Origin: Natrinema thermotolerans DSM 11552
GTDB lineage: Archaea > Halobacteriota > Halobacteria > Halobacteriales > Natrialbaceae
Assembly: GCA_000337115.1 (NCBI GenBank)
Contig: AOIR01000038.1
Location: 62,382 to 111,094 of the forward strand
Direction of reading: 5' to 3'
DNA length: 48,713 nucleotides
Shown: positions 1,777-20,979 of the stretch, piece by piece
Layout of the letters: every line of letters starts with the position of its first letter
How positions within the stretch are numbered: position 1 is the stretch's first letter
Made by a program: the position numbers and the translations under genes
Notes under the pieces: generated by a model
Told to the model about the DNA's origin: nothing
The model's database searches: none
Seen by the model: only the letters and a program-made list of their open reading frames with translations

Positions 1777-3597
1777 ATGTCACGATCCGAGTCACCGGCC
1801 GAGTCGGTTGCGGAACACGAGGAACGAATCAAGCGTCACTTGAGCGCTTCGAGGGAGATCGCGGAGACCCTGGAGTTCGATGACGACCTCAGTTTCGAAA
1901 TGGGGTTGCCCAGTCCGGGCCGCCGGACGTTCATCAAGACCAGCGGCGTCGTCGCGGCGTCGGCTGCGCTGGCGGGCTGTGCCGGCGACGATGACGATGA
2001 CTCGTCGGACGACGGGGAGTCCGACGGAGAGACGCCGTCGGCCGAGCGGAGCGAAACCGTCCAGTTGGCCGCCAAGCAATACGAGTTCGATCCCCAGGAG
2101 ATCCGGGTCCCACCGAACACGGAACTCACGATCGAGTTCACGCAGTCGACCTTCGAGGAGAACGAGGACTTCGCGATGCACACGTTCTACCTCGAGGACC
2201 CCTACGACGTCGGGCCGGTCGAACTGCCCGAGAGTACGGACGACGAAGTCATCGATTCGGTAACGTTCGTGACCGACGAGGAGGGGACCTTCGACTTCGA
2301 GTGTTCGGTCTACTGCGGGGACGGCCACGCCCAGATGAACGGGCAGCTGTACGTCGTCCCCGAGGGTGAGTCCGTCGACGAGGTGGACTTTACCGACATG
2401 GAGACGCTGACGGAGCGCCACGAAATCCTCAAAGAGGAGAGCGAACTGGCCCAGGAGCCCAGCCACGACCTCGACCTGCGCGATATCATGGTCGTTACCG
2501 AGCGCAACAACGGCTCGGTCGCGATGATCGATACGGTCAACGACGAGTTCATGGAGCGGGTCGAGAACGTCGGGAAGGCGATCCACGTCCACGACTTCCA
2601 CCCCGACCTGCCGGAGCAAACGCGCGAGGGCGCGTACGTCTACACCCAATCTAGACAGGGTGAGATGTACAAGATCGATCTGTTCGATTTCGAGCGGGTC
2701 GCCGTCGCCGACGCCGGGACGGACGCCCGGGACATCGCCGTCTCTCGGGACGGGGACTACGTGATCGGCGGGTTCTACAACCCGAACCATCTGGTCATCT
2801 GTGACGCCGAGACGATGGAGCCGATCAAGCGGATCCCGACCCACACCGTCAACCCGGACGGTGAGAGTCTGGGGAGCCGCGTCTGCTCGCTGTACGACGT
2901 CCCCGAGGAGGGACTCTTCCTCGCGGGACTGAAAGAGGGCGGCGAGGTGTGGCTCATCGACTACACGCAGGACGACTTCCCGGTCGTCGCGACCATCGAG
3001 TGCGGGCGTACCCTCCACGACGGCTTCTTCACGGAGGACGGCCGCTACTTCATGATCGCCTCGCAGACGGACAACCAGATGGACATCATCGACACGCAAG
3101 AACGGAGCCACGTCGCCGCGATCCCGATGGACGGGGTTCCCCACCCCGGCCCGGGCGCACTGTATCCCGACGAAGACCTCGCCTTTACCACCCACGCCGG
3201 TGCGCCGAGCGTCGGCGTCTGGAACACCGAAACCTGGGAAACGGAGGAGATGATCGACGTCAGGGGCTCCGGGCTGTTCATCCGGAAACACGAGAACAGC
3301 GACTACGTCTGGGCCGACGTCATCCTTACCGACAGCGAGGACGACGCCTACGTCTATACCATCGATCCCGAGACCCTCGAGGTCGATCAGGAGATCGACT
3401 GTAGCCAGTGGGGTGCCGCGGCCGCGATCCACCCCGAGTTCAGCCGCGACGGCGAGAAGGTCTACATTAGCGTCTGGCAGGGCGAGAACGAATCGATCCT
3501 CGTGTTCGATCCGAACACGGGCGAGCTGCTGACCCAGATCGAGGGCCTGCTGGCACCGACCGGCAAGTTCCTCGGCGTCCGCGCGGAGGGGCACTGA
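1777..3597 (+). CDS. CuA-cupredoxin / cytochrome d1 fusion, putative nitrite reductase
   Basis: This 606-residue exported protein appears to be a heme d1 nitrite reductase in which a CuA domain replaces the usual cytochrome c domain. Residues 1-48 are a charged extension. A Tat motif (GRRTFIK, 48-54) and lipobox Cys68 follow, then an acidic linker. Residues about 93-197 form a cupredoxin domain with a full CuA ligand set: His135, Cys176, Cys180, His184 and Met187 (CSVYCGDGHAQM). Residues about 235-606 form a d1 propeller. GKAIHVHDF places His270 where NirS has its axial heme ligand, and TLHDG (His414) and PHPGPG (His456) match the two active-site histidines. The ending LLAPTGKF is also NirS-like. 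Known NirS reduces nitrite to NO; applying that here is inference. NirF-like and NirJ-like genes lie directly downstream. The alternative is a non-catalytic d1 carrier like NirN, but all three key histidines argue for catalysis. Confidence 0.88.
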   Translation: MSRSESPAESVAEHEERIKRHLSASREIAETLEFDDDLSFEMGLPSPGRRTFIKTSGVVAASAALAGCAGDDDDDSSDDGESDGETPSAERSETVQLAAKQYEFDPQEIRVPPNTELTIEFTQSTFEENEDFAMHTFYLEDPYDVGPVELPESTDDEVIDSVTFVTDEEGTFDFECSVYCGDGHAQMNGQLYVVPEGESVDEVDFTDMETLTERHEILKEESELAQEPSHDLDLRDIMVVTERNNGSVAMIDTVNDEFMERVENVGKAIHVHDFHPDLPEQTREGAYVYTQSRQGEMYKIDLFDFERVAVADAGTDARDIAVSRDGDYVIGGFYNPNHLVICDAETMEPIKRIPTHTVNPDGESLGSRVCSLYDVPEEGLFLAGLKEGGEVWLIDYTQDDFPVVATIECGRTLHDGFFTEDGRYFMIASQTDNQMDIIDTQERSHVAAIPMDGVPHPGPGALYPDEDLAFTTHAGAPSVGVWNTETWETEEMIDVRGSGLFIRKHENSDYVWADVILTDSEDDAYVYTIDPETLEVDQEIDCSQWGAAAAIHPEFSRDGEKVYISVWQGENESILVFDPNTGELLTQIEGLLAPTGKFLGVRAEGH

Positions 3598-3623
3598 CTG
3601 CGATCGACCGTTCCCACAGGCAC

Positions 3624-4766
3624 ATGTCCGATACCAGTAACGCGACCCCGCGAACGCGGACGGACCGACGACCGGCGGGACCGCTCGCACTCGTCAAGCA
3701 CCTCCGCGGGGAGGGGCTGACGGTGATCGACGCGGCTACCCACGAGCCGCTCGGCCGGATCGGCGACGGCCGCCAGCCACACGCGCTGGCCGTCCGTCCC
3801 GGCGGCCGCTGGGCGTACGTCCCCTACATGGGGTCGAACGCGCTCGAGATCCTCGATTGCTGGACGCTCTCCGTCGCGGATCGCGTCGACGAGGTCGGGA
3901 CTGCGCCCGTGGGAGCGGTGCTGAGCCGGACGGGACGGTACCTGTTCGTCAGTACCTACGGCGGGCTCCCGGGCGACGACCGCCCGGGGCTGGCCGTCTT
4001 TCGGACGGCCGGCGAGCGGATCGAACCGGTCGCCGAACTCCCGATCGGGAAGGCCGCTGGCCTCGCCGTCGACGCCGACAACGACGTGTGGGTCGCGCTA
4101 CGAGACGACGACGAATTGCTCCGGATCGGCGCAACGCCCCCGTTCGATGTCCTGGATCGGTTCGCGGTCGGTGCCGGGCCACAGGACCTGGCCCACGAAC
4201 CGACCCGGGGATTGCTTGGCGCGAACAACGCCGACGGGGACAGCGTAACCGTCGTCGACACGCTCGAGGCGACGGTCCTCGGGACGGTCCCGGCCCCGAA
4301 CCCGAGGGGCGGGACCGCCGTCCCGGGCAGCGACCGCTGGGTCGTCGGAGACACGGAGGACGACGGCCTCACGGTCGTCGACCTCGAGTCGGTCCGCCGC
4401 GGCGAGACCGATGCGACAGCCACGGATCGCGTCTCGCTGGGAACGCCCACGGCCTTTCCCGACGTTACCCCCGACGGCTCCTTGCTCGCCGTCGACGCGT
4501 ACGACGACGACCGCGTCGCGTTCCTCGACCCCGCGAGCCTGGACGTCGTCGCGCGCGTCGAGACCGGGTCGACGCCGCGTCACCCGCGATTCAGCGCGGA
4601 CGGCCGGGTCTGTTACGTCCCCAGCGTCGACGCCGACACCGTGACCGTCGTCGACGTTGACGGCGTTCGAGCCGGCGACTCCAACCCGATCGCGGCGACC
4701 ATCGACGTGCCCGACGGGGCGGCCCCTGCGGGCTGTTTTCGTACCGATAGAGGGAGCTACCAATGA
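3624..4766 (+). CDS. NirF-like YVTN beta-propeller, putative heme d1 biosynthesis (copy 1)
   Basis: This 380-residue protein is built from repeated beta-propeller blades (DGLTVVDLES, DRVAFLDPASL, DTVTVVDVDG and similar). It has no signal peptide or membrane segment, so it should be cytoplasmic. The first blade, TVIDAATHEPLGRIGDG followed by PHALAVRPGGRWAYV, closely follows the opening of NirF, and His53 sits where NirF has the histidine needed for heme d1 formation and where NirS has its axial d1 ligand. NirF acts late in d1 assembly with NirJ. The gene starts 26 bases after the CuA-d1 stop and overlaps the next gene by ATGA, so it is translated from the same operon. The alternative is a generic YVTN repeat protein, but context and the histidine favour a d1 role. 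Confidence 0.72.
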   Translation: MSDTSNATPRTRTDRRPAGPLALVKHLRGEGLTVIDAATHEPLGRIGDGRQPHALAVRPGGRWAYVPYMGSNALEILDCWTLSVADRVDEVGTAPVGAVLSRTGRYLFVSTYGGLPGDDRPGLAVFRTAGERIEPVAELPIGKAAGLAVDADNDVWVALRDDDELLRIGATPPFDVLDRFAVGAGPQDLAHEPTRGLLGANNADGDSVTVVDTLEATVLGTVPAPNPRGGTAVPGSDRWVVGDTEDDGLTVVDLESVRRGETDATATDRVSLGTPTAFPDVTPDGSLLAVDAYDDDRVAFLDPASLDVVARVETGSTPRHPRFSADGRVCYVPSVDADTVTVVDVDGVRAGDSNPIAATIDVPDGAAPAGCFRTDRGSYQ

Positions 4767-5893
4767 CACCAGACACCGACACCGCGAGCGCCCGCTTGTC
4801 CGGTGTGCCGACGATCGTCAAAAACGCCGCCAGCAGCCACTTCAGCGCGGTCGATCTCGCCGCTGGCGAGGTCATCGCGGACCTCGGCGAGGGTCGATAC
4901 CCGCACACGGCGCTGTTTCACCCGACCGAGCCGGTCGCCTACCTGTTGTACATCGCCAGCGCCCACCTCGAGGTGGTCGATCTCGAGGCGCTCGAGACCG
5001 TCCAGCGGATCGAGCGGCTCGGGACGATGCCCGTCGGGAGCGCGCTCGGTCCGGCCGGCGACGTGCTGTTCGTCGGGACCGCAGTCGACCTGCCGGCGTC
5101 GTCGGATCCCGGCGTCCTCGCGTTCGCGATCGGCGAGGACGGCCGGCTCGAGCCCGCGGGAACGCGCCCGCTCTCGCGGAGTTCCGGGATGCGAATCGGG
5201 TCGGACGATCGGCTCTACGTGGGCCAGAAGACGGAAAACGAGATCGCCGTCCTCGGTGCCGATCCCGGGCTCGACCTCGAGGCCGAGATTCCGGTCGGCG
5301 CGGAGCCACACGACCTGTACGTCCTCGCGGAGGGGCTGGTGGTCGCCAACCACGCCGGCGGGTCGTCAGCCTCGTTCGTCGACCCGGCCACGGAGCGGGT
5401 CCGCTGTACCGCCGAGACGGGAGTGAACCCCCACGGGTTCGCCGTCGCCGACGGGCCGGACTACCGGTACGGCCTGTTCCCGGCCCGCGAGGACGACCGC
5501 GTCGCCGTCGTCGACCTCGAGGCGGTCGCGGCCGGCGACGACTCGCCGACCGAACGGCTGCTCGAGGTCGGGACGACGACCGGCTTCGCCGCGACGACGC
5601 CGGACGGTCGCTACGCCGTCGTCGACTCCTACGAGGAACCGTTCGTGACGATGCTGGACCTGACCGATCTTACCGTCGCCGGCCGCGTGGAAGTCGGTGG
5701 CGAACCGCTCCACGTCGTCTTCGGGCCCGACGGCCAGGAGTGTTACGTCGGGAACATGGAACGGAGCGATCTCGCAGTACTCGACACGCGGCCGCTGGCC
5801 GACGATCGGCCGACGGATGTTACCGTCGGCCGCCGAATCGACGGACTCGGCGCGAAACCGAGCGGCATCTTCCGCCCGGAGGTGGACCAATGA
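4763..5893 (+). CDS. NirF-like YVTN beta-propeller, putative heme d1 biosynthesis (copy 2)
   Basis: This is a second 376-residue propeller with no export signal, diverged from its upstream neighbour but with the same layout. HFSAVDLAAGEVIADLGEG leads into RYPHTALFHP, placing His48 at the position of His53 in copy 1. Both ends of the gene overlap their neighbours (ATGA at 4763-4766 and at 5890-5893), which indicates coupled translation. The pair probably arose by tandem duplication, and the two may work as a heterodimer or on successive d1 intermediates. NirF is usually a single gene, so the duplication is unusual. It could also be a d1 carrier like NirN, although NirN is normally exported. 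The d1 assignment is inference from motif and position. Confidence 0.7.
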   Translation: MTPDTDTASARLSGVPTIVKNAASSHFSAVDLAAGEVIADLGEGRYPHTALFHPTEPVAYLLYIASAHLEVVDLEALETVQRIERLGTMPVGSALGPAGDVLFVGTAVDLPASSDPGVLAFAIGEDGRLEPAGTRPLSRSSGMRIGSDDRLYVGQKTENEIAVLGADPGLDLEAEIPVGAEPHDLYVLAEGLVVANHAGGSSASFVDPATERVRCTAETGVNPHGFAVADGPDYRYGLFPAREDDRVAVVDLEAVAAGDDSPTERLLEVGTTTGFAATTPDGRYAVVDSYEEPFVTMLDLTDLTVAGRVEVGGEPLHVVFGPDGQECYVGNMERSDLAVLDTRPLADDRPTDVTVGRRIDGLGAKPSGIFRPEVDQ

Positions 5894-7110
5894 TCGATCT
5901 CACACGACTCATCAGAGGACTCGACAACCGACCGGAACAGATCCGATACGAGAAGCGCCACGCGAGCGACGCGCTCGTTCCGCTGGTCGTCTGGAACACG
6001 ACCCCCGCCTGTAACCTACAGTGTAAGCACTGCTACTTCGGGGCCTGCGACGAGCGCGACAGCGAGGAACTGTCGACGGCCGAGGCCAAATCGTTCATCG
6101 ACTCGCTGGCCGCGGTGAACGTCCCGGTACTCGTGTTCAGCGGCGGCGAGCCGTTCTTTCGGGACGATATCGCCGAACTGACCCGATACGCGTCCGAGCA
6201 GGGGATTCGGCCGATCGCCTCGAGCAACGGGACCTTCCTCACCGAGGAGCGCGCACAAGCGGTCGCCGACGCGGGGATGCAGTACGTCGGCGTCTCGCTT
6301 GACGGCGTCGGGGCGACCAACGACGAGTTCCGCGGCGTCGACGGCGCGTTCGAGCGGGCCCGGAACGGGCTTCGCAACGCTCGCGACGCCGGGATGGGGA
6401 CCGGCATCCGGTGTACGATGACCGAGGGGACTGTCGATGACGTCCCCGACGTGATCGACCTCGCCGTCGAGGAGGGGATCGACCGGGTGAACGTCTTTCA
6501 CCTGATCTACTCCGGGCGCGGCGGTGACATCACCGACGCCGACCTATCGTTCGAGCGCACGCGGGAGGTTGTCGACTCCCTCTACGAGCGCACCAAAGCC
6601 CTCGCCGACACCCATCCCGACATGCAGATCCTGACCGCCGGCAACTACGCCGACGCGGTCTATCTCTACCACCGGATTCGGGAGGACATGCCGGCCCACG
6701 CGGACCGGGCTCGAAAACTCCTGTTCGACGACGGCCCCGGTCGTGTGGTCAAAAACGGCGACGCGGGCCCCAAGGTCGTCAACGTCGACCACCGCGGCGA
6801 CGTCCACCCGAGCATGTTCCTCTCGCAGTACACGCTCGGGAACGTCCGCGAGCGCCGACTCGACGAGATCCTCGCCGACAGCGACCTCTGGGACGAACTG
6901 GCCGAACCGACCGACCACCTGAAGGGGAAATGCGGCCGCTGTCCCTGGAAGGAGGTCTGTGGCGGGAACTCCCGAGCCCGCGCCGCGGCGGTCCACGACG
7001 ACCTCTGGGCCGAGGATCCCCGGTGTTATCTCACCGAGGCCGAGTACAGCACCGACGAACTGCCGACCGATCACGCGCCACCGGTCGACGCGACCGCAGC
7101 GCTCGAGTAG
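5890..7110 (+). CDS. Radical SAM/SPASM protein, NirJ/AhbC/AhbD-like
   Basis: This 406-residue protein has a classical radical SAM motif, CNLQCKHCY (Cys41, Cys45, Cys48), a GGEP motif near residue 84, and a C-terminal SPASM-like cluster region with Cys348, Cys351, Cys357 and Cys379 (CGRCPWKEVCGGN). The closest family pattern is the tetrapyrrole-modifying group: NirJ, which replaces propionate chains on didecarboxysiroheme with oxo groups on the way to heme d1, and AhbC/AhbD of archaeal heme synthesis. Its place directly after two NirF-like genes and one gene away from a d1 protein favours NirJ. Archaea make didecarboxysiroheme for ordinary heme, so a d1 locus would need only NirJ and NirF in addition, which is what is seen here. 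Sequence alone does not separate NirJ from AhbC or AhbD. Confidence 0.82.
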   Translation: MIDLTRLIRGLDNRPEQIRYEKRHASDALVPLVVWNTTPACNLQCKHCYFGACDERDSEELSTAEAKSFIDSLAAVNVPVLVFSGGEPFFRDDIAELTRYASEQGIRPIASSNGTFLTEERAQAVADAGMQYVGVSLDGVGATNDEFRGVDGAFERARNGLRNARDAGMGTGIRCTMTEGTVDDVPDVIDLAVEEGIDRVNVFHLIYSGRGGDITDADLSFERTREVVDSLYERTKALADTHPDMQILTAGNYADAVYLYHRIREDMPAHADRARKLLFDDGPGRVVKNGDAGPKVVNVDHRGDVHPSMFLSQYTLGNVRERRLDEILADSDLWDELAEPTDHLKGKCGRCPWKEVCGGNSRARAAAVHDDLWAEDPRCYLTEAEYSTDELPTDHAPPVDATAALE

Positions 7111-7114
7111 GCCC

Positions 7115-8410
7115 ATGTACGCCCCCGATTCAGCGCCCCCGGACGCGCGGACCGAGCCCGAGCCGTCGCCGGTCGCGGCGGTACCGAAGAGCGTCCGCCG
7201 ACTCGCGTGCTATCGACTCGATCACGGGAGTAGTTCGACCGAGGAACTGGGCGCGGTCGCTCCGGACGACCCAGTCGCCGCCGCCCGGCGGATCGCGGCC
7301 CACGACCGCGTCACCGAGGCGGTCGTCCTCTCGACGTGCAACCGCGTCGAGGCGTATCTCAGCACGCGCACGCCCGCCGACCGAGACGCGGGGATCGAGG
7401 CCGCACGCGAGGCACTGGGCGATCCCGACGGCGCACGGACCGAGACCGGACTCGCAGTCGTCGACCACCTGTTCCGGGTCGCCTGCGGCCTCGAGAGCGC
7501 CGTCGTCGGTGAGGCACACGTTCTCGGCCAACTCCGGCGGACGTTCGATGCGGCGCTCGAGGCGGACCTCGCCGGCGGCGTGGTGACTCGGGCAGCGGAC
7601 GCGGCCGTCTCGGTGGGGCGGCGCTGCCGCGACGAGACCGACATCGACGAGGGAACGGTCGGCTACGGGAGCGCGACCTGCGAGGCCATCGCCGAGGCGG
7701 GCGGGGTCCCGGACCGGCTCGTCGTCGTCGGTGCCGGCGAGATGGCGACCGAAGTGGCCAGCGCCGCCGGCCACCGCTGGGACTGCCGCGTCGACGCCGT
7801 CAACCGCTCGGCCGCGTCCCAACTCCCGACCGAGGATGGTCGGTACTGGCCGCTCGAGGCCCTCGAAGCCGCACTTTCCGACGCCGACGCGATCGTAACG
7901 GCGACGGGCGCGCCGGACCCAGTGGTGACGCTCGAGGCAATACAGGGAGTCGCGTCCGAGACGCCGGTCGTGGACCTGGCGACCCCGCCGGACGTCGCCA
8001 AACTCGTCCGCCGATCGGCCGTGCCGGTCGTGTCCCTCGACGCGATCCAGCGCCGGATCGCGGCCGCCGTCGCGGGTCGGCGGGCGGCGGTGCCGGCGGT
8101 CGAGGACGCGATCACTGACGCGGTCGCGGCCTTCGTCGATCGGGAACGCGAGAACCGTGCCGAAGACACGCTTCGCGAACTCCACCGGACGGCGGCCGCG
8201 ATCCGCGAGAGCGAACTCGAGCGGGCCCGTGACCGGCTCGCGAGCGGGGCCGACGCCGAGGCGGTCCTCGAGGACTTCGCGAGCGCACTGACCGGATCGC
8301 TGCTTGGCACGCCGACTGAGCGCCTCCGGGCGGCCGCCCGCGACGGCGACGACGCGGTCATCGAGGCCACCCATCGGTTGTTCGACCTCGACTGCGAGGG
8401 GTCGGAGTGA
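7115..8410 (+). CDS. hemA: Glutamyl-tRNA reductase
   Basis: The 431-residue protein has the GluTR layout. An N-terminal catalytic domain has the active-site cysteine in STCNRVEAYL (Cys75) and the loop GLESAVVGEAHVLGQLR, the central domain has a nucleotide-binding motif (VVVGAGEMATEVASAAG), and a helical dimerisation domain follows at the C-terminus. It reduces Glu-tRNA to glutamate-1-semialdehyde, the committed step of tetrapyrrole synthesis. The start is an ATG only four bases after the radical SAM stop, so it belongs to the same transcript. Haloarchaea usually keep hemA with other general heme genes. A copy inside this locus, with an N-terminal extension of about 25 residues, looks like a dedicated paralog that raises precursor flow for heme d1. 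Whether a second hemA exists cannot be seen here. Confidence 0.88.
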   Translation: MYAPDSAPPDARTEPEPSPVAAVPKSVRRLACYRLDHGSSSTEELGAVAPDDPVAAARRIAAHDRVTEAVVLSTCNRVEAYLSTRTPADRDAGIEAAREALGDPDGARTETGLAVVDHLFRVACGLESAVVGEAHVLGQLRRTFDAALEADLAGGVVTRAADAAVSVGRRCRDETDIDEGTVGYGSATCEAIAEAGGVPDRLVVVGAGEMATEVASAAGHRWDCRVDAVNRSAASQLPTEDGRYWPLEALEAALSDADAIVTATGAPDPVVTLEAIQGVASETPVVDLATPPDVAKLVRRSAVPVVSLDAIQRRIAAAVAGRRAAVPAVEDAITDAVAAFVDRERENRAEDTLRELHRTAAAIRESELERARDRLASGADAEAVLEDFASALTGSLLGTPTERLRAAARDGDDAVIEATHRLFDLDCEGSE

Positions 8411-8639
8411 CTGCGGGCGCTGGTGCCCGCGGCAGCGTCGGTTCGCGGCCGCCGGTTACCGCGGGCGGGTCGTCGGAAGGGTGGGCCACGCATTCTCGCC
8501 CCACTTGAAGACCCCTCATTAGCGGGATTCTGGCGGTAGCGTCCCCAACGCGTGGGAACAGGCGGACCGGGTTAAAGAATCGAGTAGCAACGCCGTCATG
8601 TATGCTATCGAAACGCTCCGCCACACGAGGTGGTCGACG
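8411..8639 (+). promoter_or_regulatory. Gap with a probable promoter for the molybdoenzyme operon
   Basis: This 229 bp gap separates hemA from the catalytic subunit gene. GGGTTAAAGAAT at about 8571-8582 is TATA-like and lies about 25 bp before an ATG at 8598, which could be a leaderless start adding 14 residues. GAGGTGG at 8627-8633 is Shine-Dalgarno-like and supports ATG 8640 instead. No coding potential was seen in the rest. Confidence 0.4.
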
Positions 8640-11600
8640 ATGAGTCTCTCGCGTCGCGATTTCCTGGCGGCTGCCGGGACGGGGACGGTCGGTGCCCTGC
8701 TCGGCTCCGCGTGGGGAGCGACCCAATCCGTCGACTCCATCACACAGGTCGACAACCCGCTCAAGGCCTATCCCAACCGTGACTGGGAGGAGGTCTACCA
8801 CGACATCTACGAGTACGATTCGGTCGATTGGACCGTCTGCCACCCCAACTGTACGCAGTCGTGTGCCCTGAACTTCTACATGAAAAACGGGGTCCCGATC
8901 AGGGCCGAACAGATCTATCACGAGGAGGAGGGCAGCCCCGGTCCGGGCGGCCCCGGCGGCTACGAGGAGGCGGGGGTCACCCGCCACTGGAACCCGCGCG
9001 GTTGCATGAAGGGGCTGACGCTGCACCGCCGGACGTTCGAGCCCAGCCGGATCAAGTATCCCATGGTCCGCAAGGGGTGGAGTCCCGACGATCCCAACCC
9101 CGAGGGTCGCGGCGAGGACGAGTTCGAGCGCGTCTCCTGGGACGAAGCGATCGACCTGATCGCCGAGAAGATGGCGAGTCTGGAAGACGAGAAGCGGTTC
9201 CACATCTTCAACGCGATCAAGTCCGACGGGCTGATCACCCGCCACGGGGCCGGCCGGCGGCTGGCCTCGATCTTCGGCGGCTGCGAGTGGACCGAGTACG
9301 ACTGGTACGCCGACCTCCCGCCGGGCCACGTCATCACGACGGGCTATCAGACCAGCGACGCCGACGCGTCGGCCTGGCGGGCCGCCGACTACACGATCAT
9401 GCAGGGGAAGAACCTGATCCACAACAAGCTCGCGGACAACCACTTCTTACAGGAGACCCGCGAGCGCGGCGGCAAGATGGTCGGCGTCTACCCCGACTAC
9501 TCGCCGACGGTCCAGAAGTGCGACCGCTGGCTCCCCGTCCGCCCGGGCAGCGACCCCGCCTTTGCCCTGGGCGTGGCCCACGTCATCATCGACGAGGAAC
9601 TCTACGACGAGGAGTTCATGCGGAAGTTCACGACCCTGCCGCTGTTGATCCGGCAGGACGACGGGAAGTACCTCCGCGCCCACGAGGTCTTCGAGGACCA
9701 CGAGCCGCCCGCCGAGGACAGCGAGCAGCGCCACGAGGAAAACGACTGGGGCGACTTCGTCGCCCTCGACGAGAACGGCGATCCCGTCCCCGTCACCCGC
9801 GAGGAGGTCGGCGAGGAGACGCCCGCGACTCCCCAACTCGAGGTCGGTGTCGACCTCGAGCTGGCAAACGGCGAGTCGGTCGGCGTCCACACCGACTTCG
9901 TCCGCCAGAAGTCGAACATCCTCGAGAACTACGATCCGGAGACGGTCGAGGAGATCACGACGATCCCGGCCGACGGGCTCCGGAAGACCGCCCGCGAGTT
10001 CGCCGACGCCGAGAAGGCCCAGTGGTTCACCGGTGAGGGGATCAACCACTGGTTCCACTCCAACGACTCGCTCCAGCGGACGATCTTCTTCATCCAGTCG
10101 ATGCTTGGCAACATCGGCGAGCGCGGGGCCGGCTACTACAACTACTCCGGCCAGTACAAGATCGAGCTGCTGGACGGCTACCCCGAGTACGTCAACCCCG
10201 ACGGCAATGCAGCCCACGGGATGTATCCCGGCTACGCGTTCGCCTTCTTCGGGGGCGAACAGCTCGACGCCCACGAGATCCGCGGGGACTTCGACCGCGA
10301 ACTCGACCTCGTGCCACAGGGCGACGCCGAGGAGCCGGTGATGCCGACCAACGCCGAGTCGTACACGATGTCGAAGCCGACGATCCTGTGGACGATGAAC
10401 TGCAACCTCCTGAATCAGACCAAACATCAGGAGCACGTCATCGAGAACTTCGTCAAACATCCGGACACGAGCAACGAACTCTCGATCGTCTCGGACATGC
10501 ACATGACCTACTCCGCGCGCCACGCGGACATCGTGCTCCCGGTCCCCTCCTGGCTCGAGTGCGAGTATCCCGACATCACGGTCGGCCCGGAGAACCCCTT
10601 CATCCACATGGATCACGGGGTCATGGACCCGCTCTACGACACGAAACAGGACGGCGAGGCCGTCGCGATGGTCGCGGAGAAGTTAGACGAGAAGATCCCG
10701 CCCGAAGAGCGCAACGTCGACTCCTACCGGGCGTACTTCGAGAAGTTCCTCGACGACGACGAGGACGTCCGCGACTACATCCAGGAGACGCTGGACGCGG
10801 GGATGACGACCCGCGACATCGACGTCGAGGACATCGAGGACGGCCCCGAACGCCTTCAGCTGAAGACGTATCCGCGGATCCCCTTCTACTCCCAGATCAA
10901 CGAGGATCGGCCGTTCTACACCAAGACCGGCCGGATGGAGTTCCACAAGGAGGAGGACCGCTTCCTCGAACTGGGCCGGGCCGACCTCGACCACATCGAG
11001 AGCCCCGAAGGGACGCCCTACGGGGTGAACAAGAAGTGGGACGAGGCCAAAGACGAGGAGAACCCGCTGTATCACGACGAGGAGTACCAGTTCTACTACA
11101 ACACACCCCACCCGAAGTACCGGACCCACTCCTCGTGGGGGATGACCGACTGGAACCTGATCTGGTCCTCGCGTGACTTCGGCTCGACGAACGCCGATCC
11201 CGAGGGGACCGAGCGGCTAGTTGATGACTTCTCGTTCCCGCAGGGCGAGGGCGAGACCGAGGAGACCCCGCCGCTTGGCGAGGCGTTCGTCGAGATGCAC
11301 CCCGAGGACGCCGCGGACATCGACGTCGAGAACGGCGACTACGTCCGGATCACCGGCAAGCGCGGCGACCTCGTCGTGCGCGTGATGGTCAGCGAGCGCC
11401 AGCGCCCCCGCTCGGCCGGCGACATGGGCCAGCTGACCATCTGGCACGGCTGGTGGCCCCAGCACTTCCCCGACGACGAGGAGCAAGGCGACGGCGTCAA
11501 GGGATACAACGTCACGACGAACATCTGGCTCGACCCGGCCCAGGAGACCGACGACCTCGTCCACAAGTCCGTCTTCGGCGATCCGAACATCTCCGAACAC

Positions 11601-11801
11601 GTCGAAGACGACATCGCGTGGAAGGGGGCCGAACTCGAGCACGGCTACGAGGAGACCGTCTGGGCACCGACGGGAACGAACCGCGACGACCTCGTGGAAG
11701 TCGAGAAATACGAGGAGGCGGACTGGTGGCCCGGCGACGCGCGGAAAGACGAACTGTTCCAGGACTACGTGAGCGGATCGCTGCAGGGAGGTGACAGCTG
11801 A
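8640..11801 (+). CDS. Type II DMSO-reductase-family molybdoenzyme, catalytic (alpha) subunit
   Basis: This 1053-residue molybdo-bis(pyranopterin guanine dinucleotide) enzyme starts with a Tat signal (SRRDFLAAAG). The FS0 cluster motif is CHPNCTQSC, with Cys67, Cys71, Cys75 and distant Cys122 (NPRGCMKG). YDWYADLPP, followed by a TSDADASAWRAADY segment, matches the NarG region holding the aspartate Mo ligand, here Asp225. The family includes nitrate, chlorate, perchlorate and selenate reductases and dimethyl sulfide and ethylbenzene dehydrogenases; haloarchaeal DMSO/TMAO reductases are also related. E. coli NarG has His at the first FS0 position, whereas this protein has Cys. The A-B-D-C gene order matches ser, clr, ddh and ebd operons. 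Tat export places it outside the membrane. Nitrate is a plausible substrate given the d1 gene upstream, but DMSO/TMAO, chlorate or selenate cannot be excluded. An in-frame ATG at 8598 is an alternative start. Confidence 0.92.
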   Translation: MSLSRRDFLAAAGTGTVGALLGSAWGATQSVDSITQVDNPLKAYPNRDWEEVYHDIYEYDSVDWTVCHPNCTQSCALNFYMKNGVPIRAEQIYHEEEGSPGPGGPGGYEEAGVTRHWNPRGCMKGLTLHRRTFEPSRIKYPMVRKGWSPDDPNPEGRGEDEFERVSWDEAIDLIAEKMASLEDEKRFHIFNAIKSDGLITRHGAGRRLASIFGGCEWTEYDWYADLPPGHVITTGYQTSDADASAWRAADYTIMQGKNLIHNKLADNHFLQETRERGGKMVGVYPDYSPTVQKCDRWLPVRPGSDPAFALGVAHVIIDEELYDEEFMRKFTTLPLLIRQDDGKYLRAHEVFEDHEPPAEDSEQRHEENDWGDFVALDENGDPVPVTREEVGEETPATPQLEVGVDLELANGESVGVHTDFVRQKSNILENYDPETVEEITTIPADGLRKTAREFADAEKAQWFTGEGINHWFHSNDSLQRTIFFIQSMLGNIGERGAGYYNYSGQYKIELLDGYPEYVNPDGNAAHGMYPGYAFAFFGGEQLDAHEIRGDFDRELDLVPQGDAEEPVMPTNAESYTMSKPTILWTMNCNLLNQTKHQEHVIENFVKHPDTSNELSIVSDMHMTYSARHADIVLPVPSWLECEYPDITVGPENPFIHMDHGVMDPLYDTKQDGEAVAMVAEKLDEKIPPEERNVDSYRAYFEKFLDDDEDVRDYIQETLDAGMTTRDIDVEDIEDGPERLQLKTYPRIPFYSQINEDRPFYTKTGRMEFHKEEDRFLELGRADLDHIESPEGTPYGVNKKWDEAKDEENPLYHDEEYQFYYNTPHPKYRTHSSWGMTDWNLIWSSRDFGSTNADPEGTERLVDDFSFPQGEGETEETPPLGEAFVEMHPEDAADIDVENGDYVRITGKRGDLVVRVMVSERQRPRSAGDMGQLTIWHGWWPQHFPDDEEQGDGVKGYNVTTNIWLDPAQETDDLVHKSVFGDPNISEHVEDDIAWKGAELEHGYEETVWAPTGTNRDDLVEVEKYEEADWWPGDARKDELFQDYVSGSLQGGDS

Positions 11802-12982
11802 TGCCGGAGACCTACAACCCACAACTCGGCCGCGAGCACAGCTACCCCTACGAACACCGCGAAGAGGAACGCGACTGGCACTGGGGGATGATCATCAACA
11901 TCAACCGGTGTATCAACTGCAACACCTGCTCCTTTGCCTGCAAGTCCACCTGGACGAGCGGGGAGGGCGAGGAGTACATGTGGTGGATGAACGTCGAGAC
12001 CGAGCCCTACGGCGGCTACCCGATGGGCTGGGACATGCGCCTGCTCGACGACTTAGGCGAGAACGAGACCATCTTCGAAGCCGCCGAGGACGGCGAGGCG
12101 GCCAAGGGCTACATCGCCCAGAAGGAAGAATGGGAGTACCCCGCCCTGGGCGACGACCAGGTCCACGGCGAGTACCCCACCGGCGACGTCGTCGAGAGCG
12201 ACCTCGAGGAAGACGAGTACCACGACATGTGGCAGTTCTACCTGCCGCGGCTCTGTAACCACTGCAAGAACCCCGCCTGTCTGGCTGCGTGTCCGCGCAA
12301 GGCGATCTACAAGCGCGAGGAGGACGGGATCGTCCTGCTCGACCAGGAGCGGTGTCGGGGCTACCGCAAGTGCGTGAAGTCCTGTCCGTACCACAAGCCG
12401 ATGTACAACCCCGAGACGGGCGTCTCGGAGAAGCCGGTCGGCTGTTTCCCCCGTATCGAGGAGGGCAACGTCCCCCGCTGTGTCTCCTCGTGTATCGGGA
12501 AGACGCGCCTGCACGGCAACATAAATCGCGGTCCCGACGCCGGCCACCCAGGCGGAAACACGTCGGCGGCGGCCGGCCGGAGCCCGGTCAACTACCTCGC
12601 GAAGAGCGACGAGAAGATCGCGCTCCCGCTGTACCCGCAGTTCGGGACCCGGCCGCAGGTGTTCTACATGCCGCCCTACCACGTGCCGCCGGAGTTCCTC
12701 ACCCAGATGTTCACGCCCAACACCGAGGACAAGCAAAACGAGTGGCCCGGCAGCACCTTCGAAGAGTCGGTCAAGATCGTTCAGGATCGGGTCCGCAACC
12801 CGAGCCACCACACCCTCGGCATCCTCCAACTGTTCGGCGCGACCACCCGCCTCATCGAGACCTACACCGTCAAAGAACACCGCGTGAAGGGGTGGGACCG
12901 CAAGGGGAACAAGGTCGTCGACATCCCCTTCGAGGAGGAGATGGAGGTCCGCGAGGGCGAGATGTGGACTAATCAGCCATAG
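11801..12982 (+). CDS. Molybdoenzyme iron-sulfur (beta) subunit, NarH/DdhB type
   Basis: The 393-residue subunit carries four cysteine groups. They are CINCNTCSFAC (Cys37, 40, 43, 47), CNHCKNPACLAAC (Cys152, 155, 160, 164), CRGYRKCVKSC (Cys185, 191, 195) and Cys215 with CVSSC (Cys227, 231). In group three Tyr188 stands where a fourth cysteine would be, the position that is Trp in NarH and gives a [3Fe-4S] cluster, so three [4Fe-4S] and one [3Fe-4S] cluster are expected. It passes electrons between the catalytic subunit and the heme b subunit. It has no signal peptide of its own and should be co-exported with the Tat-tagged catalytic subunit. The ATG overlaps the catalytic subunit stop (ATGA at 11801), so translation is coupled. 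Confidence 0.93.
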   Translation: MPETYNPQLGREHSYPYEHREEERDWHWGMIININRCINCNTCSFACKSTWTSGEGEEYMWWMNVETEPYGGYPMGWDMRLLDDLGENETIFEAAEDGEAAKGYIAQKEEWEYPALGDDQVHGEYPTGDVVESDLEEDEYHDMWQFYLPRLCNHCKNPACLAACPRKAIYKREEDGIVLLDQERCRGYRKCVKSCPYHKPMYNPETGVSEKPVGCFPRIEEGNVPRCVSSCIGKTRLHGNINRGPDAGHPGGNTSAAAGRSPVNYLAKSDEKIALPLYPQFGTRPQVFYMPPYHVPPEFLTQMFTPNTEDKQNEWPGSTFEESVKIVQDRVRNPSHHTLGILQLFGATTRLIETYTVKEHRVKGWDRKGNKVVDIPFEEEMEVREGEMWTNQP

Positions 12983-12986
12983 ACCA

Positions 12987-13688
12987 ATGACACCGAACGA
13001 CACACCCGATTCCGAGTACCACGCCGCGCGGGCCACCCTCTACTGTGGCGCTGCCGCGGCGTTTACCTATCCGAGCGAGGAGACAATCAGCGAACTACTC
13101 GATCCCGCGGCCCGCGAGGGGATCGAACGCGCCGCCGAGACCGTCGGCGTCACCGAGGAGGCGACCACGCTGCTCGAGGCCCTCGAGGAAACGGGCCTCG
13201 AGGACTTGCAGGTGGCCTACAACAACCTGTTCGGCCTCCCGAGCGACGACGGCACGTACGCGGTGATCCCCTACGAAGCCCACTACACGACCCGTGACGA
13301 GATCAGCAGCGAGCAGCGCCGGATCGCGACCGTCGTCGGGCTGCTGGAGGAGTTCGGCCTCGAACCCAGCGACGACTTCGCCGAGCGACAGGACCACGTC
13401 GCCGCCGAACTCGAGTTGGCGCAGGTCCTGGCCGGCCAGCGGGCGGTGGCTCTCGAGTCGGACGAGCCGGTCGCGGCCGAGCGGGTCGCGAAGGCCGAGG
13501 CGACGGTGCTTGCCGATCACCTCGTCGAGTTCGTCCCGGCGCTGGCACATGACCTGCGGCAGGCGACCGACGAGGACGCCTACGTCGCCGCGGCGGATCT
13601 CGTCGAGGAGTTGGTGACCTACGACAACGGGCAACATCCCGAGCCGACCGTCTCGACGGAGGCGGCGAGCGGAGGTGAGGCTCCGTGA
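12987..13688 (+). CDS. TorD/NarJ-type molybdoenzyme assembly chaperone
   Basis: This 233-residue helical acidic protein has the TorD-like features LQVAYNNLFGLP (near residues 73-84) and a later conserved-looking acidic segment EFVPALAHDL. Such chaperones bind the Tat signal of the catalytic subunit and hold the apoenzyme until the cofactor is inserted. It occupies the D position of an A-B-D-C operon, starts four bases after the beta subunit stop, and its stop overlaps the GTG start of the gamma gene. It is cytoplasmic with no metal motif. The family is divergent, so the assignment rests on size, motif and position together. Confidence 0.85.
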   Translation: MTPNDTPDSEYHAARATLYCGAAAAFTYPSEETISELLDPAAREGIERAAETVGVTEEATTLLEALEETGLEDLQVAYNNLFGLPSDDGTYAVIPYEAHYTTRDEISSEQRRIATVVGLLEEFGLEPSDDFAERQDHVAAELELAQVLAGQRAVALESDEPVAAERVAKAEATVLADHLVEFVPALAHDLRQATDEDAYVAAADLVEELVTYDNGQHPEPTVSTEAASGGEAP

Positions 13689-14716
13689 GCGACCGCACCG
13701 AGATCGGGCCGATCTCGATCGAACACGACGCTGCACGCGGCGCGACGAAGCTGGCCGCGGTCGTGCTGTGTCTCGTGCTGGTCGTTCAGGTCGCGGTCGT
13801 CGCGGTCCTGACGATCGGCCCGCAGCCGATGGACTCGGTGGACTCGGTGCCCGCGGAGCCCGACGCCGACGCGTGGGACGATGCTGACACCGAGACGCTG
13901 TCGCTCGACGCCCAGCAGATGGCGACCCCCTACGGCGGCGGGAGCATCGACGAAGTAGACGTCCAGGCCGTCACGAACGACACGCACGTCGCCTTCCGTC
14001 TGGAGTGGGAGGACCCGACCGAGGACACCGAGATCAACGAGCCCAACGCCTACAGCGACGCCGCGGCGGTCATGCTCCGCAGCGGGAGCGAGCCGCCGAT
14101 CGTCATGGGCGCGAACGGCGACCCGGTCAACATCTGGTACTGGCGCTCGAGCTGGCAGTTCTCGGAGTCCGATCCGGGCGGCGACATGTACGCGTATCCG
14201 CATCCGGACGACCGGACGAAGCCGGGACAGGCGGCGGGGAACCCGCTCTCACAGTCGAGCTACACCCGATACGGGCAAAACTACTACGCGACCGGGTACG
14301 GCTCGCTGACCCACGCGGAGACCCAGCCCGTCTCGGCCAACGGCGAGCGGACCGACGACGGCTGGGCGGTCGTGTTCCAGCGCGAACACGACGCCAGCGG
14401 TGAGTACGACGCCGAGTTCGAGGACAGCGAACAGATGTATCTCACCTACGCCGTCTGGAACGGCAGCGCGGATGAGGCGAACGGCCAGAAGTCGCTGTCG
14501 TACCAGTACCTGACGCTGGATACCGACGACGGCACGCTCAGTGCGGCCGACGACGAGAGCGACGACGGCGACACCGACGCGAGCGACGGCGGTGCGGTGG
14601 CCAGCGTGACCGAGACGGCCGGCTGGCTTGCCAGTTCCGCGACTAACTGGCCCGCCGTGACGCTGCTCGCGACGGTCGCCGCGTGGCTCGTCAGCTACTG
14701 GAGGCTCCGAGAATGA
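13685..14716 (+). CDS. Molybdoenzyme heme b (gamma) subunit, ethylbenzene dehydrogenase gamma-like
   Basis: The 343-residue protein begins at a GTG inside the chaperone stop codon. A membrane segment at about residues 23-45 is followed by a large extracellular beta-rich domain and a second membrane segment close to the C-terminus (residues about 318-338). The domain has the EbdC/DdhC/SerC pattern: AVMLRSG, then PIVMGANGDPVNIWYWRSS, then WAVVFQREHD. In ethylbenzene dehydrogenase, heme b is held by a Met and a Lys; which residues do so here cannot be decided by eye, and the MGANG Met is a candidate. Known bacterial gamma subunits are soluble and periplasmic. This one looks anchored at both ends, so it may deliver quinol-derived or halocyanin-derived electrons at the membrane. 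Confidence 0.85.
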   Translation: MSDRTEIGPISIEHDAARGATKLAAVVLCLVLVVQVAVVAVLTIGPQPMDSVDSVPAEPDADAWDDADTETLSLDAQQMATPYGGGSIDEVDVQAVTNDTHVAFRLEWEDPTEDTEINEPNAYSDAAAVMLRSGSEPPIVMGANGDPVNIWYWRSSWQFSESDPGGDMYAYPHPDDRTKPGQAAGNPLSQSSYTRYGQNYYATGYGSLTHAETQPVSANGERTDDGWAVVFQREHDASGEYDAEFEDSEQMYLTYAVWNGSADEANGQKSLSYQYLTLDTDDGTLSAADDESDDGDTDASDGGAVASVTETAGWLASSATNWPAVTLLATVAAWLVSYWRLRE

Positions 14717-18135: not shown

Positions 18136-18297
18136 CCGGGAGACGGCGGTCGGCTCGCCGACTCGATGGGGCGATCAGAGCCGGCGGGTTCGTAGTCGCC
18201 GTCCGCCCCGCCGGCATCGCGTAACCATATTCAATTGCTCTCCCACGAAATAGGAATGGAAACCAGTTTTCTTTGTACGGCCGTTCGAAGGGAACGC

Positions 18298-19248
18298 ATG
18301 CGCAGTCACGACGGCAACGGGACGGACCCGACGAGCCGTCGGGAGCTACTCGCTACGGCCGGCGGCCTGACGGCGGGACTGGTCGGGACGGCGGGCTGTC
18401 TCGGTGCCACCGACGAGGTCCGCGTCCTCGCCGCCGGCAGCCTGGCCAGCGCGTTCGAGAACGGGGTCGGACCGACCTTCGAGTCCGACGCCGAGTTCGG
18501 CTACGCGGGCGAGTACTACGGGACCAACGCCGTGTTGCGACTGGTCGTTGATGGAACGAAGCACCCCGACGTCGTGATCGGGGCCGACGCCGCCCTCCTC
18601 CGGGACCGACTCTATCCCGATCACGCCGACTGGGACGTGACGTTCGCGGCCAACGAAGTCGTCATCGCGTACGCCCCGGAGACCGCGCTGGGCGAGCGCC
18701 TCGCGGCCGGCGAGCCGTGGTACGACGTCTTCGCCGACGCTGACGAGGGCGAGATCGCGATCAGCGACCCCGATGTCGACCCGCTTGGCTACCGGGCGCT
18801 GCTCCTGTTCGAACTCGCCGAGCGCGAACACGGTCTCGAGGGGTTCCGGACGGCGATGGCCGACCGCGTCGCCCACGTCGCCGACGAACCCAGACTGCTC
18901 GCCGGACTCGAGAACGGCGACCGGGCCTGTGTCGTCGCCTACCGCAACATGGCGGTCGAGCGCGACGCGGCCGTGCGGCGGCTGGATGACGCCTACAACT
19001 TCGGGAGCCGCGCGAACGCCGACCGGTACGCGCGGGCGAGTTACACCACCGAACGCGGCCACACCGTCACGGGGTCGCCCGTCGTCTACAACGCGACGGT
19101 CCCGGCCGATGCCGACGATCCGGACGCCGGTCGGGCGTTCGTCTCCTTCCTGCTCGAAAACGAGGACCTGCTGACCGATCACGGGCTGCGGGTGGATGAT
19201 GCCATCCCCCAGTTCCACGGCGATCCACCGGAGGAGATCGCGCCGTGA
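18298..19248 (+). CDS. wtpA: Molybdate/tungstate ABC transporter substrate-binding lipoprotein WtpA
   Basis: The 316-residue lipoprotein has a Tat-type signal (SRRELLATAGG) and lipobox (TAGC). The mature part has VLAAGSLASAFE, then ADWDVTFAANEVVIAYAP and ISDPDVDPLGYR, which follow the WtpA/ModA archaeal pattern for a binding protein that holds molybdate or tungstate. It captures the oxyanion outside the membrane and passes it to the permease, whose GTG start overlaps this stop. Supply of Mo or W for the molybdoenzyme upstream is the obvious role. The ATG at 18298 gives a normal Tat signal; an upstream in-frame ATG at 18256 would add 14 residues. Confidence 0.87.
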   Translation: MRSHDGNGTDPTSRRELLATAGGLTAGLVGTAGCLGATDEVRVLAAGSLASAFENGVGPTFESDAEFGYAGEYYGTNAVLRLVVDGTKHPDVVIGADAALLRDRLYPDHADWDVTFAANEVVIAYAPETALGERLAAGEPWYDVFADADEGEIAISDPDVDPLGYRALLLFELAEREHGLEGFRTAMADRVAHVADEPRLLAGLENGDRACVVAYRNMAVERDAAVRRLDDAYNFGSRANADRYARASYTTERGHTVTGSPVVYNATVPADADDPDAGRAFVSFLLENEDLLTDHGLRVDDAIPQFHGDPPEEIAP

Positions 19249-20177
19249 CCCACTCGAGCCGCGAGCCCGAACAGGTGTCGGGCCCCGATCGCAGTCACGA
19301 GGACACCTCGGACCGCGGGCCCGAGCGCGCGTCGGACGCCGACCGCGAGCGGCGGACCGCCTCGAGCGGCGGCCGCGGCTGGTTCGGCGTCGATCGACCG
19401 TGGACTCCCGGCGGTCTGGCCGTCCCCACGTTGCTCGGGACGGTGTTGCTCGCGTACTTCGTCGTCCCCTTCGCGGCCTTTCTGTTCCGGAGCCGGCGAG
19501 TCGACGTCGTCGCCGGGCTCGCCGATCCCGCGGTCCGCGATGCGATCGCGACGTCGCTGCTGACGGCACCGGTCTCGACGGCCGTCGCGACCGCCTTCGG
19601 CGTGCCGCTGGCCTACGTCCTCTCGCGGGCCTCGTTCCGCGGGAAGCGACTGGTCGAGGCGCTGGTCCTGTTGCCGCTGGTCGTCCCGCCGATCGTCGGC
19701 GGCGTCATGCTGTTGACCGTCGTCGGCCGCTATACGCCGATCGGGGCCGCGGCGGCGGCGATCGGACTGCCACTGACCGGCAGCGCCGCCGGCGTCGTCC
19801 TCGCCCAGACGTTCGTCGCCGCGCCGTTTCTGGTCGTCACCGCCCGCGCCGGCTTCGACGGGGTCGACCCCCGGCTCGAGGAGGCCTCGCGGACGATGGG
19901 CTACGGCCGACTGCGGACGATACGACTGGTTTCCCTGCCGCTTGCCCGCAACGCCATCGCCGCCGGGATCGTCCTGACGTTCGTCCGGGCGATCGGCGAG
20001 TTCGGCGCGACGATGATGGTCGCGTACACGCCGCGGACGATGCCGACCCGGATCCGCGTCGCCTTCATCGCTCGCGGGGTCGACGCCATCGTCCCGATCG
20101 CGCTCGCCTTGCTCGCGATCGCCGTGATCGTCGTCGTGGCCGTTCAGTTGCTGGTCGGCACCCCTCGTCGGGGCTGA
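19245..20177 (+). CDS. wtpB: Molybdate/tungstate ABC transporter permease WtpB
   Basis: The 310-residue membrane protein has a charged cytoplasmic N-terminus of about 55 residues and five to six hydrophobic segments. The ABC permease EAA-like loop, EASRTMGYGRLRTIRLVSLPL, is followed by FVRAIGEFGATMMVAYTPRTMP, the signature of ModB/WtpB/CysT permeases. It pairs with the binding protein immediately upstream through a GTGA overlap. No ATPase gene (wtpC/modC) follows; the next gene is a regulator, so the energising subunit must come from elsewhere. Confidence 0.9.
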   Translation: MTHSSREPEQVSGPDRSHEDTSDRGPERASDADRERRTASSGGRGWFGVDRPWTPGGLAVPTLLGTVLLAYFVVPFAAFLFRSRRVDVVAGLADPAVRDAIATSLLTAPVSTAVATAFGVPLAYVLSRASFRGKRLVEALVLLPLVVPPIVGGVMLLTVVGRYTPIGAAAAAIGLPLTGSAAGVVLAQTFVAAPFLVVTARAGFDGVDPRLEEASRTMGYGRLRTIRLVSLPLARNAIAAGIVLTFVRAIGEFGATMMVAYTPRTMPTRIRVAFIARGVDAIVPIALALLAIAVIVVVAVQLLVGTPRRG

Positions 20178-20245
20178 TCGACGGTGGCGGCGGCGCTCTC
20201 GACGAATCCGAACGAAAACAAATCAGATCGCGTGTCATTCGCTCT

Positions 20246-20276
20246 AACCGCTTCTAAGTGCTTTGGAAGTGCGGTT
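20246..20276. promoter_or_regulatory. Imperfect inverted repeat upstream of the HTH_10 regulator
   Basis: AACCGCTTC (20246-20254) and GAAGTGCGGTT (20266-20276) are inverted copies apart from a two-base bulge, with about 11 bp between the arms. The element sits 35 bp before the ATG at 20311, in the promoter region, so it could be an operator for autoregulation. It is a visual find and short enough to be chance. Confidence 0.35.
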
Positions 20277-20310
20277 ATGGACATCGTCGCTGTACGGAGA
20301 AACGAGACTC

Positions 20311-20979
20311 ATGACATCCATCGCAGACATCGAGATCCCGGCCGACGGCACCGGAACCGGTCAGCTGTTCGAGGCCGTCCCCTCCCTGACGTGTGAGATG
20401 GAGCGGGTAATCGCCTCGAGCGGGCACGGCCTCTGGCTGGCGGGGCCCTCCCAGTCCGAGATCGAAGCGGCGCTCGACGAGGCCGACGCGATCGGAACGT
20501 ACTCCCAGATCAGCAGCGACGAGGACCGCTGGCTCTACGACATCGAGTTCGAACCGGACACCGTCGACCCCTTCGAGATCGTCCTCGAGGAGGGGGGGAC
20601 CGTCCTGAGCGCCTCGGCCTCGGACGGCACGTGGCTGCTCAGCATTCGCGTCGTCGACCGCGAGAGCGTGAGTTCGCTCTATGACCGACTCGACGACAAC
20701 GACGTGACGCCGACGATCGTTCGCCTGTTCGACCTCGCGGAGGAGAGCCACTCCCAGTGTGGCCTGACGGCTCGCCAGTACGAAACGTTGGTCGCGGCCA
20801 TCGATCACGGCTACTTCGAGATTCCCCGCGAGGTCTCGATGCAGGAGCTCTCCGAAGAACTCGGTATCTCCCACCAGGCGCTGTCCGAACGGCTACGCCG
20901 GGCCTACCGCGCGCTCGTCACCGCCGAACTCAACGTGACCGAGGAAGACGCCGCCGCGCCGCCGATCCCTACGAACTGA
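20311..20979 (+). CDS. HTH_10 (bacterio-opsin activator/DmsR-type) transcription regulator
   Basis: The 222-residue protein has an N-terminal domain of about 150 residues that resembles the bat-type sensing domain, then a C-terminal HTH_10 domain: CGLTARQYETLVAAIDHGYFEIPR, shortened here to LTARQYETL and GYFEIPREVSMQELSEELG, followed by SHQALSERLRR. In Haloferax and Halobacterium a related regulator, DmsR, switches on the dms operon under anaerobic DMSO/TMAO conditions. The position at the end of the locus suggests it controls the molybdoenzyme and perhaps the d1 genes. ATG 20311 gives a clean start; in-frame TTG 20263 lies within the promoter repeat. Confidence 0.86.
   Translation: MTSIADIEIPADGTGTGQLFEAVPSLTCEMERVIASSGHGLWLAGPSQSEIEAALDEADAIGTYSQISSDEDRWLYDIEFEPDTVDPFEIVLEEGGTVLSASASDGTWLLSIRVVDRESVSSLYDRLDDNDVTPTIVRLFDLAEESHSQCGLTARQYETLVAAIDHGYFEIPREVSMQELSEELGISHQALSERLRRAYRALVTAELNVTEEDAAAPPIPTN

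Follow-up and report, generated by a model that had tools for sequence, protein, structure and literature searches.

The gene at 1777-3597 of the window, the 48,713-nucleotide stretch of Natrinema thermotolerans DSM 11552 DNA analysed here, almost certainly encodes a fusion of a CuA domain with a cytochrome d1 propeller that contains a d1-type pocket (CuA-d1). The protein is probably a NirS-type, nitric oxide-forming nitrite reductase that would be fed through CuA and would use heme d1 made by the products of its own locus. With slightly less assurance, we favor regarding it as a new class of CuA enzyme, an archaeal CuA-to-heme-d1, NO-forming nitrite reductase without a c-type heme, which would be served by a minimal d1 pathway and work beside NirK.

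Domain build of CuA-d1

The open reading frame codes for 606 residues; an alternative GTG start at 1741 would make the protein 12 residues longer. Its features, in the order in which they occur, are:

1777-3597, + strand: CuA-d1 open reading frame, 606 aa, with the CuA domain N-terminal and the cytochrome d1 propeller C-terminal
1921-1980, + strand: TAT signal with lipobox, residues 49-68 (RRTFIKTSG...LAGC), from Pfam TAT_signal and alignment
2044-2361, + strand: CuA domain, residues ~90-195, from profile and PDB alignment
2179-2181, + strand: CuA ligand H135, invariant
2302-2304, + strand: CuA ligand C176, invariant
2314-2316, + strand: CuA ligand C180, invariant
2326-2328, + strand: CuA ligand H184, invariant
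2335-2337, + strand: CuA ligand M187, invariant
2473-3576, + strand: d1 propeller, residues 233-600, from Pfam Cytochrom_D1, PDB alignment and Foldseek
2584-2586, + strand: axial histidine H270, aligned with the axial histidine of NirS (AVHI)
3016-3018, + strand: active-site histidine H414, aligned with the first active-site histidine of NirS (LHDG)
3142-3144, + strand: active-site histidine H456, aligned with the second active-site histidine of NirS (PHPG)

The Pfam TAT_signal profile matches the N-terminal region with E=2.7e-4, slightly under its cut-off, and R49, R50, A66, G67 and C68 are invariant among the homologs in the alignment. Given the RR motif and the lipobox, CuA-d1 is most likely exported by the TAT route and anchored to a lipid.

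The first-pass annotation had described a CuA domain and a d1 propeller in one protein, with a complete CuA ligand set (H135, C176, C180, H184 and M187) and with H270, H414 and H456 as counterparts of the axial and the two active-site histidines of NirS. This description holds. The Pfam Cytochrom_D1 profile covers residues 233-600 with E=1.3e-76 and 258 bits (cut-off 25.5), the CuA ligands are in the places assigned to them, and the PDB alignment agrees on the three histidines. All eight CuA and d1 ligands are invariant in 15 haloarchaeal homologs of 50-97% identity; a search for loss of CuA ligands among these close homologs, each at least 50% identical, found none lost.

Matches of the CuA domain to individual profiles are weak, both for NCBIfam CoxB on residues 161-197 and for the C-terminal (CuA) part of NosZ on residues 94-195. 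When residues 86-200 were searched alone, the 35 best PDB matches comprised 34 CuA domains of the COX2 or N2O-reductase type and one CyoA. The best match, to COX2 of Thermus ba3, has an E-value of only 0.005; it extends over the whole domain and brings the HxF histidine as well as the CxxxCxxxHxxM loop into register. Taken alone, this weak match in sequence would count against reading CuA-d1 as a nitrite reductase. The characteristic CuA feature, a histidine plus CxxxCxxxHxxM in a cupredoxin fold, is present, the ligand loop being modeled with low confidence, and a dinuclear copper centre is predicted for the domain.

An AlphaFold2 model built with 15 sequences has a mean pLDDT of 73.9 and shows the strands of a beta sandwich ahead of the propeller. 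Confidence is lowest for residues 179-185, the CuA loop in its apo form, and for residues 455-457, which include the second distal histidine; these two are the least certain parts of the structure, and their uncertainty would likewise count against the nitrite reductase reading. The 30 best PDB structure matches of the model found with Foldseek are all NirN, NirS or NirF. The linker ahead of the propeller can be aligned to NirS in the PDB alignment starting at residue 211, which suggests that CuA has replaced the cytochrome c entry domain at a natural domain boundary.

The cassette and its proposed heme supply

CuA-d1 is the lead gene of a five-gene cassette, whose other members are:

3624-4766, + strand: propA, propeller of d1/NirF type, no signal peptide seen
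4763-5893, + strand: propB, NirF-like propeller, from model, Foldseek, hhalign and alignment
5890-7110, + strand: radical SAM/SPASM protein of the NirJ/AhbC family, from tree and profiles
7121-8410, + strand: second glutamyl-tRNA reductase (HemA), an extra copy tied to the cassette

The genes at 1777-8410 overlap or are separated by tens of bases, and with this tight spacing the cassette looks like one operon. A scan for two peptide patterns that characterize the haloarchaeal proteins yielded nine named carrier genomes: Natrinema altunense, Natrinema ejinorense, Natrinema pallidum, Natrinema gari, Halorubrum salipaludis, Halorubrum amylolyticum, Natronomonas sp. LN261, Halobiforma haloterrestris and Halobiforma nitratireducens. 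The order CuA-d1, propA, propB, radical SAM, HemA is kept in all nine, so that NirF-like propellers and a radical SAM protein of the NirJ/AhbC family are linked to CuA-d1 in each of them; identity of the lead gene across the nine cassettes is 48-93%. In Natrinema and Halorubrum, CuA-d1 is preceded by a conserved divergent open reading frame without a recognised family (1100-1525, − strand, in the window); no counterpart was found at this place in Natronomonas or Halobiforma.

For propA, Pfam Cytochrom_D1 gives 30.5 bits, and NirF, at 8.7e-6, ranks after generic YVTN matches; aligned with NirF, propA keeps the axial-type histidine and is missing both distal-type histidines. The AlphaFold model of propB (pLDDT 92.6) has NirF as its best and NirS as its second PDB match in Foldseek, and hhalign pairs the protein with NirF at a probability of 94. 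Its invariant residues H48, H183-D184, H224 and H317 align with heme-pocket positions of NirF and NirS, and its C-terminal PSGIF motif is also present in NirF. Since generic YVTN propellers come first by sequence for both propA and propB, we call them NirF-like on account of structure and of the positions that align.

In the radical SAM protein the CxxxCxxC motif is intact. The protein forms a separate clade inside the NirJ/AhbC group; it passed the cut-off of none of the named profiles against which it was compared, NirJ included. It presumably carries out a side-chain step on didecarboxysiroheme, and its position in a clade of its own, without a NirJ-level score, would count against local synthesis of heme d1. 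In both Halobiforma (L045 and L046) no radical SAM protein of AhbC type scoring in the 420-445-bit class turned up, which seems to leave the cassette enzyme as the sole member of the NirJ/AhbC family there. The extra HemA follows the cassette closely: a second full-length copy is present in eight of nine tested carriers versus none of nine congeners without the cassette. None of nirE, nirDLGH or nirN was found within the cassette, and the missing NirN homolog counts against a nitrite reductase with local d1 synthesis, since it leaves the final side-chain oxidation of d1 without a candidate.

Genes for two-domain AhbA/B are present in all genomes tested, located away from the cassette, and such AhbA and AhbB proteins have been described to supply didecarboxysiroheme in haloarchaea (PMC3403918). 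Cassette and shared AhbA/B together read as a compact heme d1 pathway. In the individual roles that we infer, the extra HemA would increase tetrapyrrole flux, the AhbA/B pair would provide didecarboxysiroheme, a step like that of NirJ would fall to the cassette radical SAM enzyme, and the pair of NirF-like propellers would carry or finish heme d1. A haloarchaeal AhbC-like protein encoded elsewhere in the source genome (locus L049, C39) scores 749 bits with TIGR04347, a family named pseudo-SAM. Its CxxxCxxC motif is intact (CNLYCSHC), and the family name may be misleading.

No match to Cytochrom_C_asm, the CcmC/CcmF family, was found in the source genome, three Natrinema, Halorubrum salipaludis and one Natronomonas. 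The usual maturation of c-type cytochromes is therefore probably impossible in these genomes, and a CuA entry domain would avoid the need for it. Both Halobiforma possess the family; the earlier claim that haloarchaea have few c-type cytochromes is thus supported by most of the genomes tested, but not by these two.

Occurrence and denitrification context

CuA-d1 is present in 15 of the 391 genomes of the class, in six genera of three families, a distribution far beyond chance. A d1-only paralog of ~418 aa, with HDG and HP(T/S)P, without CuA and with no signal peptide seen (G000:C59:252746-253936, locus L002, 1366-2619; also L031 and L097), occurs in eight of the 391, every one a CuA-d1 carrier, and one further copy lies on a Natrinema thermotolerans plasmid. 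Such confinement would be expected if the paralog depended on the same heme supply. In 7 of the 15 carriers CuA-d1 is the sole full-length D1 protein, so that no other user of the heme is evident.

Downstream of the cassette, the window contains genes of nitrate reductase type:

8598-11801, + strand: NarG-like molybdopterin subunit with TAT signal, outside the cassette core
11801-12982, + strand: NarH-like iron-sulfur subunit
12987-13688, + strand: nitrate reductase delta (NarJ) chaperone
13685-14716, + strand: EB_dh-type heme-binding gamma subunit

The narG and narH genes adjoin the cassette in some Natrinema only, namely in the window and at three of the four named loci of the genus. In Natrinema pallidum a frame change within narG (L040, 17858-17867), either real or a sequencing error, splits the draft gene. 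At 18235-20979, downstream of the nar genes, the window encodes an SBP_bac_11 solute-binding protein and a probable permease, possibly a molybdate importer, followed by a Bat-type HTH_10 regulator. The genes for solute-binding protein, permease and regulator adjoin the cassette in Natrinema gari, there without nar.

Proteins of the SCO1 family are copper chaperones of the kind that loads CuA, and one of them is encoded beside the cassette of Halobiforma haloterrestris. Both Halobiforma cassettes are also flanked by genes for a CuA subunit II and for a heme-copper subunit I in which glutamine takes the place of the active-site tyrosine (GHGTQQ), a replacement that marks eNOR (PMC8756737). NirK, an eNOR with the same mark and CuA-d1 lie within ~11 kb of each other in one Natrinema genome (G143).

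NirK was found above its cut-off in 14 of the 15 carriers, being fragmentary in the fifteenth, and in 6 of 13 congeners without the cassette; the corresponding counts for full-length NosZ are 11 of 15 and 3 of 13, all of these genomes being related and not independent. Judged by these counts, the carriers look like denitrifiers in which CuA-d1 has been added to NirK. The first-pass annotation had portrayed haloarchaeal denitrifiers as users of NirK, which the carriers bear out, except that the d1 protein accompanies NirK rather than making it unnecessary: a role for CuA-d1 as replacement of NirK was rejected on the grounds of their co-occurrence. Since almost all carriers encode NirK, another nitrite reductase would seem superfluous, a point against this reading of CuA-d1. 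According to a recent survey, the combination of nirK and nirS is unusual yet known, occurring in 5.3% of assemblies (PMC10999283). The source genome itself contains NirK and yielded no full-length NosZ match.

Active site, function and relation to known systems

We aligned bacterial NirS, NirN and NirF from annotated plasmids with the haloarchaeal proteins. The d1 family comprises NirS, the enzyme, NirN, a dehydrogenase, and NirF, an assembly protein, and two active-site positions sort them cleanly: NirS has HDG/HPG(R or P), NirN DDF/HLGS and NirF YDA/HLEG. CuA-d1 and all its haloarchaeal relatives have HDG/HPGP. R243 is present in CuA-d1 and NirS and missing from NirN, and R243, R293, Y334 and K386 of CuA-d1 are invariant down to 50% identity. 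The NirS-like active site proposed in the first-pass annotation is thereby corroborated and, judged by it, CuA-d1 should work like NirS. NirF membership was ruled out, the YDA/HLEG signature being missing and an electron-entry domain being present.

The arginine of canonical HPGR corresponds to Pro459 in CuA-d1 (HPGP). This counts against the nitrite reductase reading, although NirS proteins of the Aliiroseovarius/Ruegeria clade have proline as well, so that the arginine is no strict defining feature. NirS has so far been defined by its N-terminal c-type cytochrome domain (CxxCH); in CuA-d1 this domain is missing and CuA stands in its place, and we therefore do not file the protein as a cytochrome cd1 enzyme. 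The phylogenetic tree sets the haloarchaeal CuA-d1 proteins apart as a separate group next to NirS and NirN, outside the NirS clade; rows L030 and L097 were left out, and an Azospirillum row labelled NirS2, which has the NirN signature, was placed with the NirN group. The AU test allows the haloarchaeal proteins to be joined to NirS (p=0.24) and speaks weakly against joining them to NirN (p=0.034).

In the mechanism that we infer for CuA-d1, from the identity of the heme and the electron path to the substrate and the work of the assembly genes, an extracellular donor would reduce the CuA centre of the lipid-anchored enzyme; general knowledge of haloarchaea makes halocyanin the natural candidate. 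The electron would then pass intramolecularly from CuA to heme d1 in the propeller, where nitrite, bound to the ferrous iron between H414 and H456 with H270 as axial ligand, would be converted to NO, which an NO reductase would then clear.

Canonical cd1 enzymes also reduce O2, and PDB entries of dioxygen complexes are among the structure matches of CuA-d1. The protein might thus be a d1 enzyme acting mainly on another substrate, such as O2 or hydroxylamine, or a non-respiratory sink or sensor for NO or nitrite; the NirK alongside it in nearly every carrier and the proline after the second histidine would fit such a role. With nar, NirK or eNOR genes as its neighbours and genomes rich in NosZ as its hosts, however, we consider this unlikely.

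Slightly less probable, and the other main rival, is a NirN-like function in heme d1 assembly, in which dihydro-heme d1 would be oxidized to d1, the electrons would leave through CuA, and another protein would be the reductase. All five NirN sequences carry DDF/HLGS and have no arginine at position 243, whereas CuA-d1 has neither NirN motif and is of NirS type; in addition, the NirN grouping is the one weakly rejected, and the seven carriers without another full-length D1 protein offer no recipient for the heme. These points are set against NirN being the top Foldseek match by E-value, the lack of any other NirN in the cassette and the d1-only paralog of eight carriers as a possible client.

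We regard it as highly improbable that the propeller binds another heme or none and that its histidines are ancestral leftovers. The radical SAM enzyme cannot be assigned to NirJ with clarity, and in Halobiforma, with seemingly no second AhbC/NirJ member, it might serve heme b; nevertheless, the three histidines and R243, R293, Y334 and K386 are invariant to 50% identity, and NirF-like propellers, a radical SAM enzyme and an extra HemA are linked to the gene. A relative of nitrous oxide reductase, suggested by the combination of CuA and propeller as in NosZ or lactonase-type L-NosZ, can practically be dismissed: the partial L-NosZ match reaches 46.7 bits against a cut-off of 700 and that to NosZ less than 20 against 625, as compared with 258 bits for Cytochrom_D1, CuA is N-terminal and not C-terminal, the histidine set is that of NirS, and true NosZ is encoded separately in 11 carriers.

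If CuA-d1 is indeed a NirS-type nitrite reductase, the electron-entry module of NirS would be exchangeable, haloarchaea without c-type cytochrome maturation would have access to a heme-based nitrite reductase, and CuA would have one more main kind of host. The compact cassette would then be an archaeal system for late heme d1 synthesis, the steps of which are partly unsettled.

The clade itself has been encountered before. Pold et al. (2024) reported a placement similar to that in our tree: a 'cytochrome d protein' of Halobacteriota, lacking cytochrome c, served them as an additional outgroup to NirS. Halobacterial NirS-like sequences were excluded from their nirS counts (PMC10999283), and environmental nirS surveys currently leave these sequences aside. 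Being haloarchaeal, with a d1 domain and without cytochrome c, that outgroup is very probably the same clade as CuA-d1. The main text of the article contains neither CuA nor cupredoxin as a term and mentions neither the cassette nor the active-site signature. The earlier remark, that no described example was known to its author, therefore stands for the CuA domain, as far as the searchable text goes, but not for the clade as such. In the freely searchable main text of journal articles we found no description of the fusion, the cassette or the signature, and a 2021 survey reached the conclusion that every haloarchaeal nitrite reductase is a NirK (PMC8400030).

With canonical NirS (Pseudomonas aeruginosa, 1bl9/1nir; Paracoccus pantotrophus, 1aof) CuA-d1 shares the d1 propeller, the three histidines, R243, the HDG and HPG motifs, export, and a linker to an N-terminal electron-entry domain; it differs in having CuA for cytochrome c and HPGP for HPGR, and the d1 domains are 29-32% identical. 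NirN and NirF have the same propeller fold but different active-site signatures. The closest bacterial d1 domains, at 41% identity, are those of the Aliiroseovarius/Ruegeria NirS clade, which share HPGP; these plasmid-borne proteins differ in possessing a c-heme domain (CAGCH), and their loci include a more complete gene set of nirEFDLGHJN type as well as NapC/NirT and plastocyanin genes. Genes of the NapC/NirT and plastocyanin/azurin types adjoin three alphaproteobacterial NirS or NirS-like loci (L032, L083 and L084), and the electron donor of the Aliiroseovarius and Ruegeria NirS may be a copper protein, too.

That a copper domain can join NirS is known from C1-C2-NirS fusions of Chloroflexi, some of which have an N-terminal cupredoxin (PMC8756737); these retain their cytochrome c domains, however, whereas CuA is the only entry centre in CuA-d1. 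On the copper side, COX2, N2O reductase, CuA-NOR and subunit II of eNOR have the H...CxxxCxxxHxxM set and the cupredoxin-like sandwich in common with CuA-d1. The known CuA hosts are heme-copper or CuZ enzymes; in CuA-d1, by contrast, the CuA domain precedes a d1 propeller.
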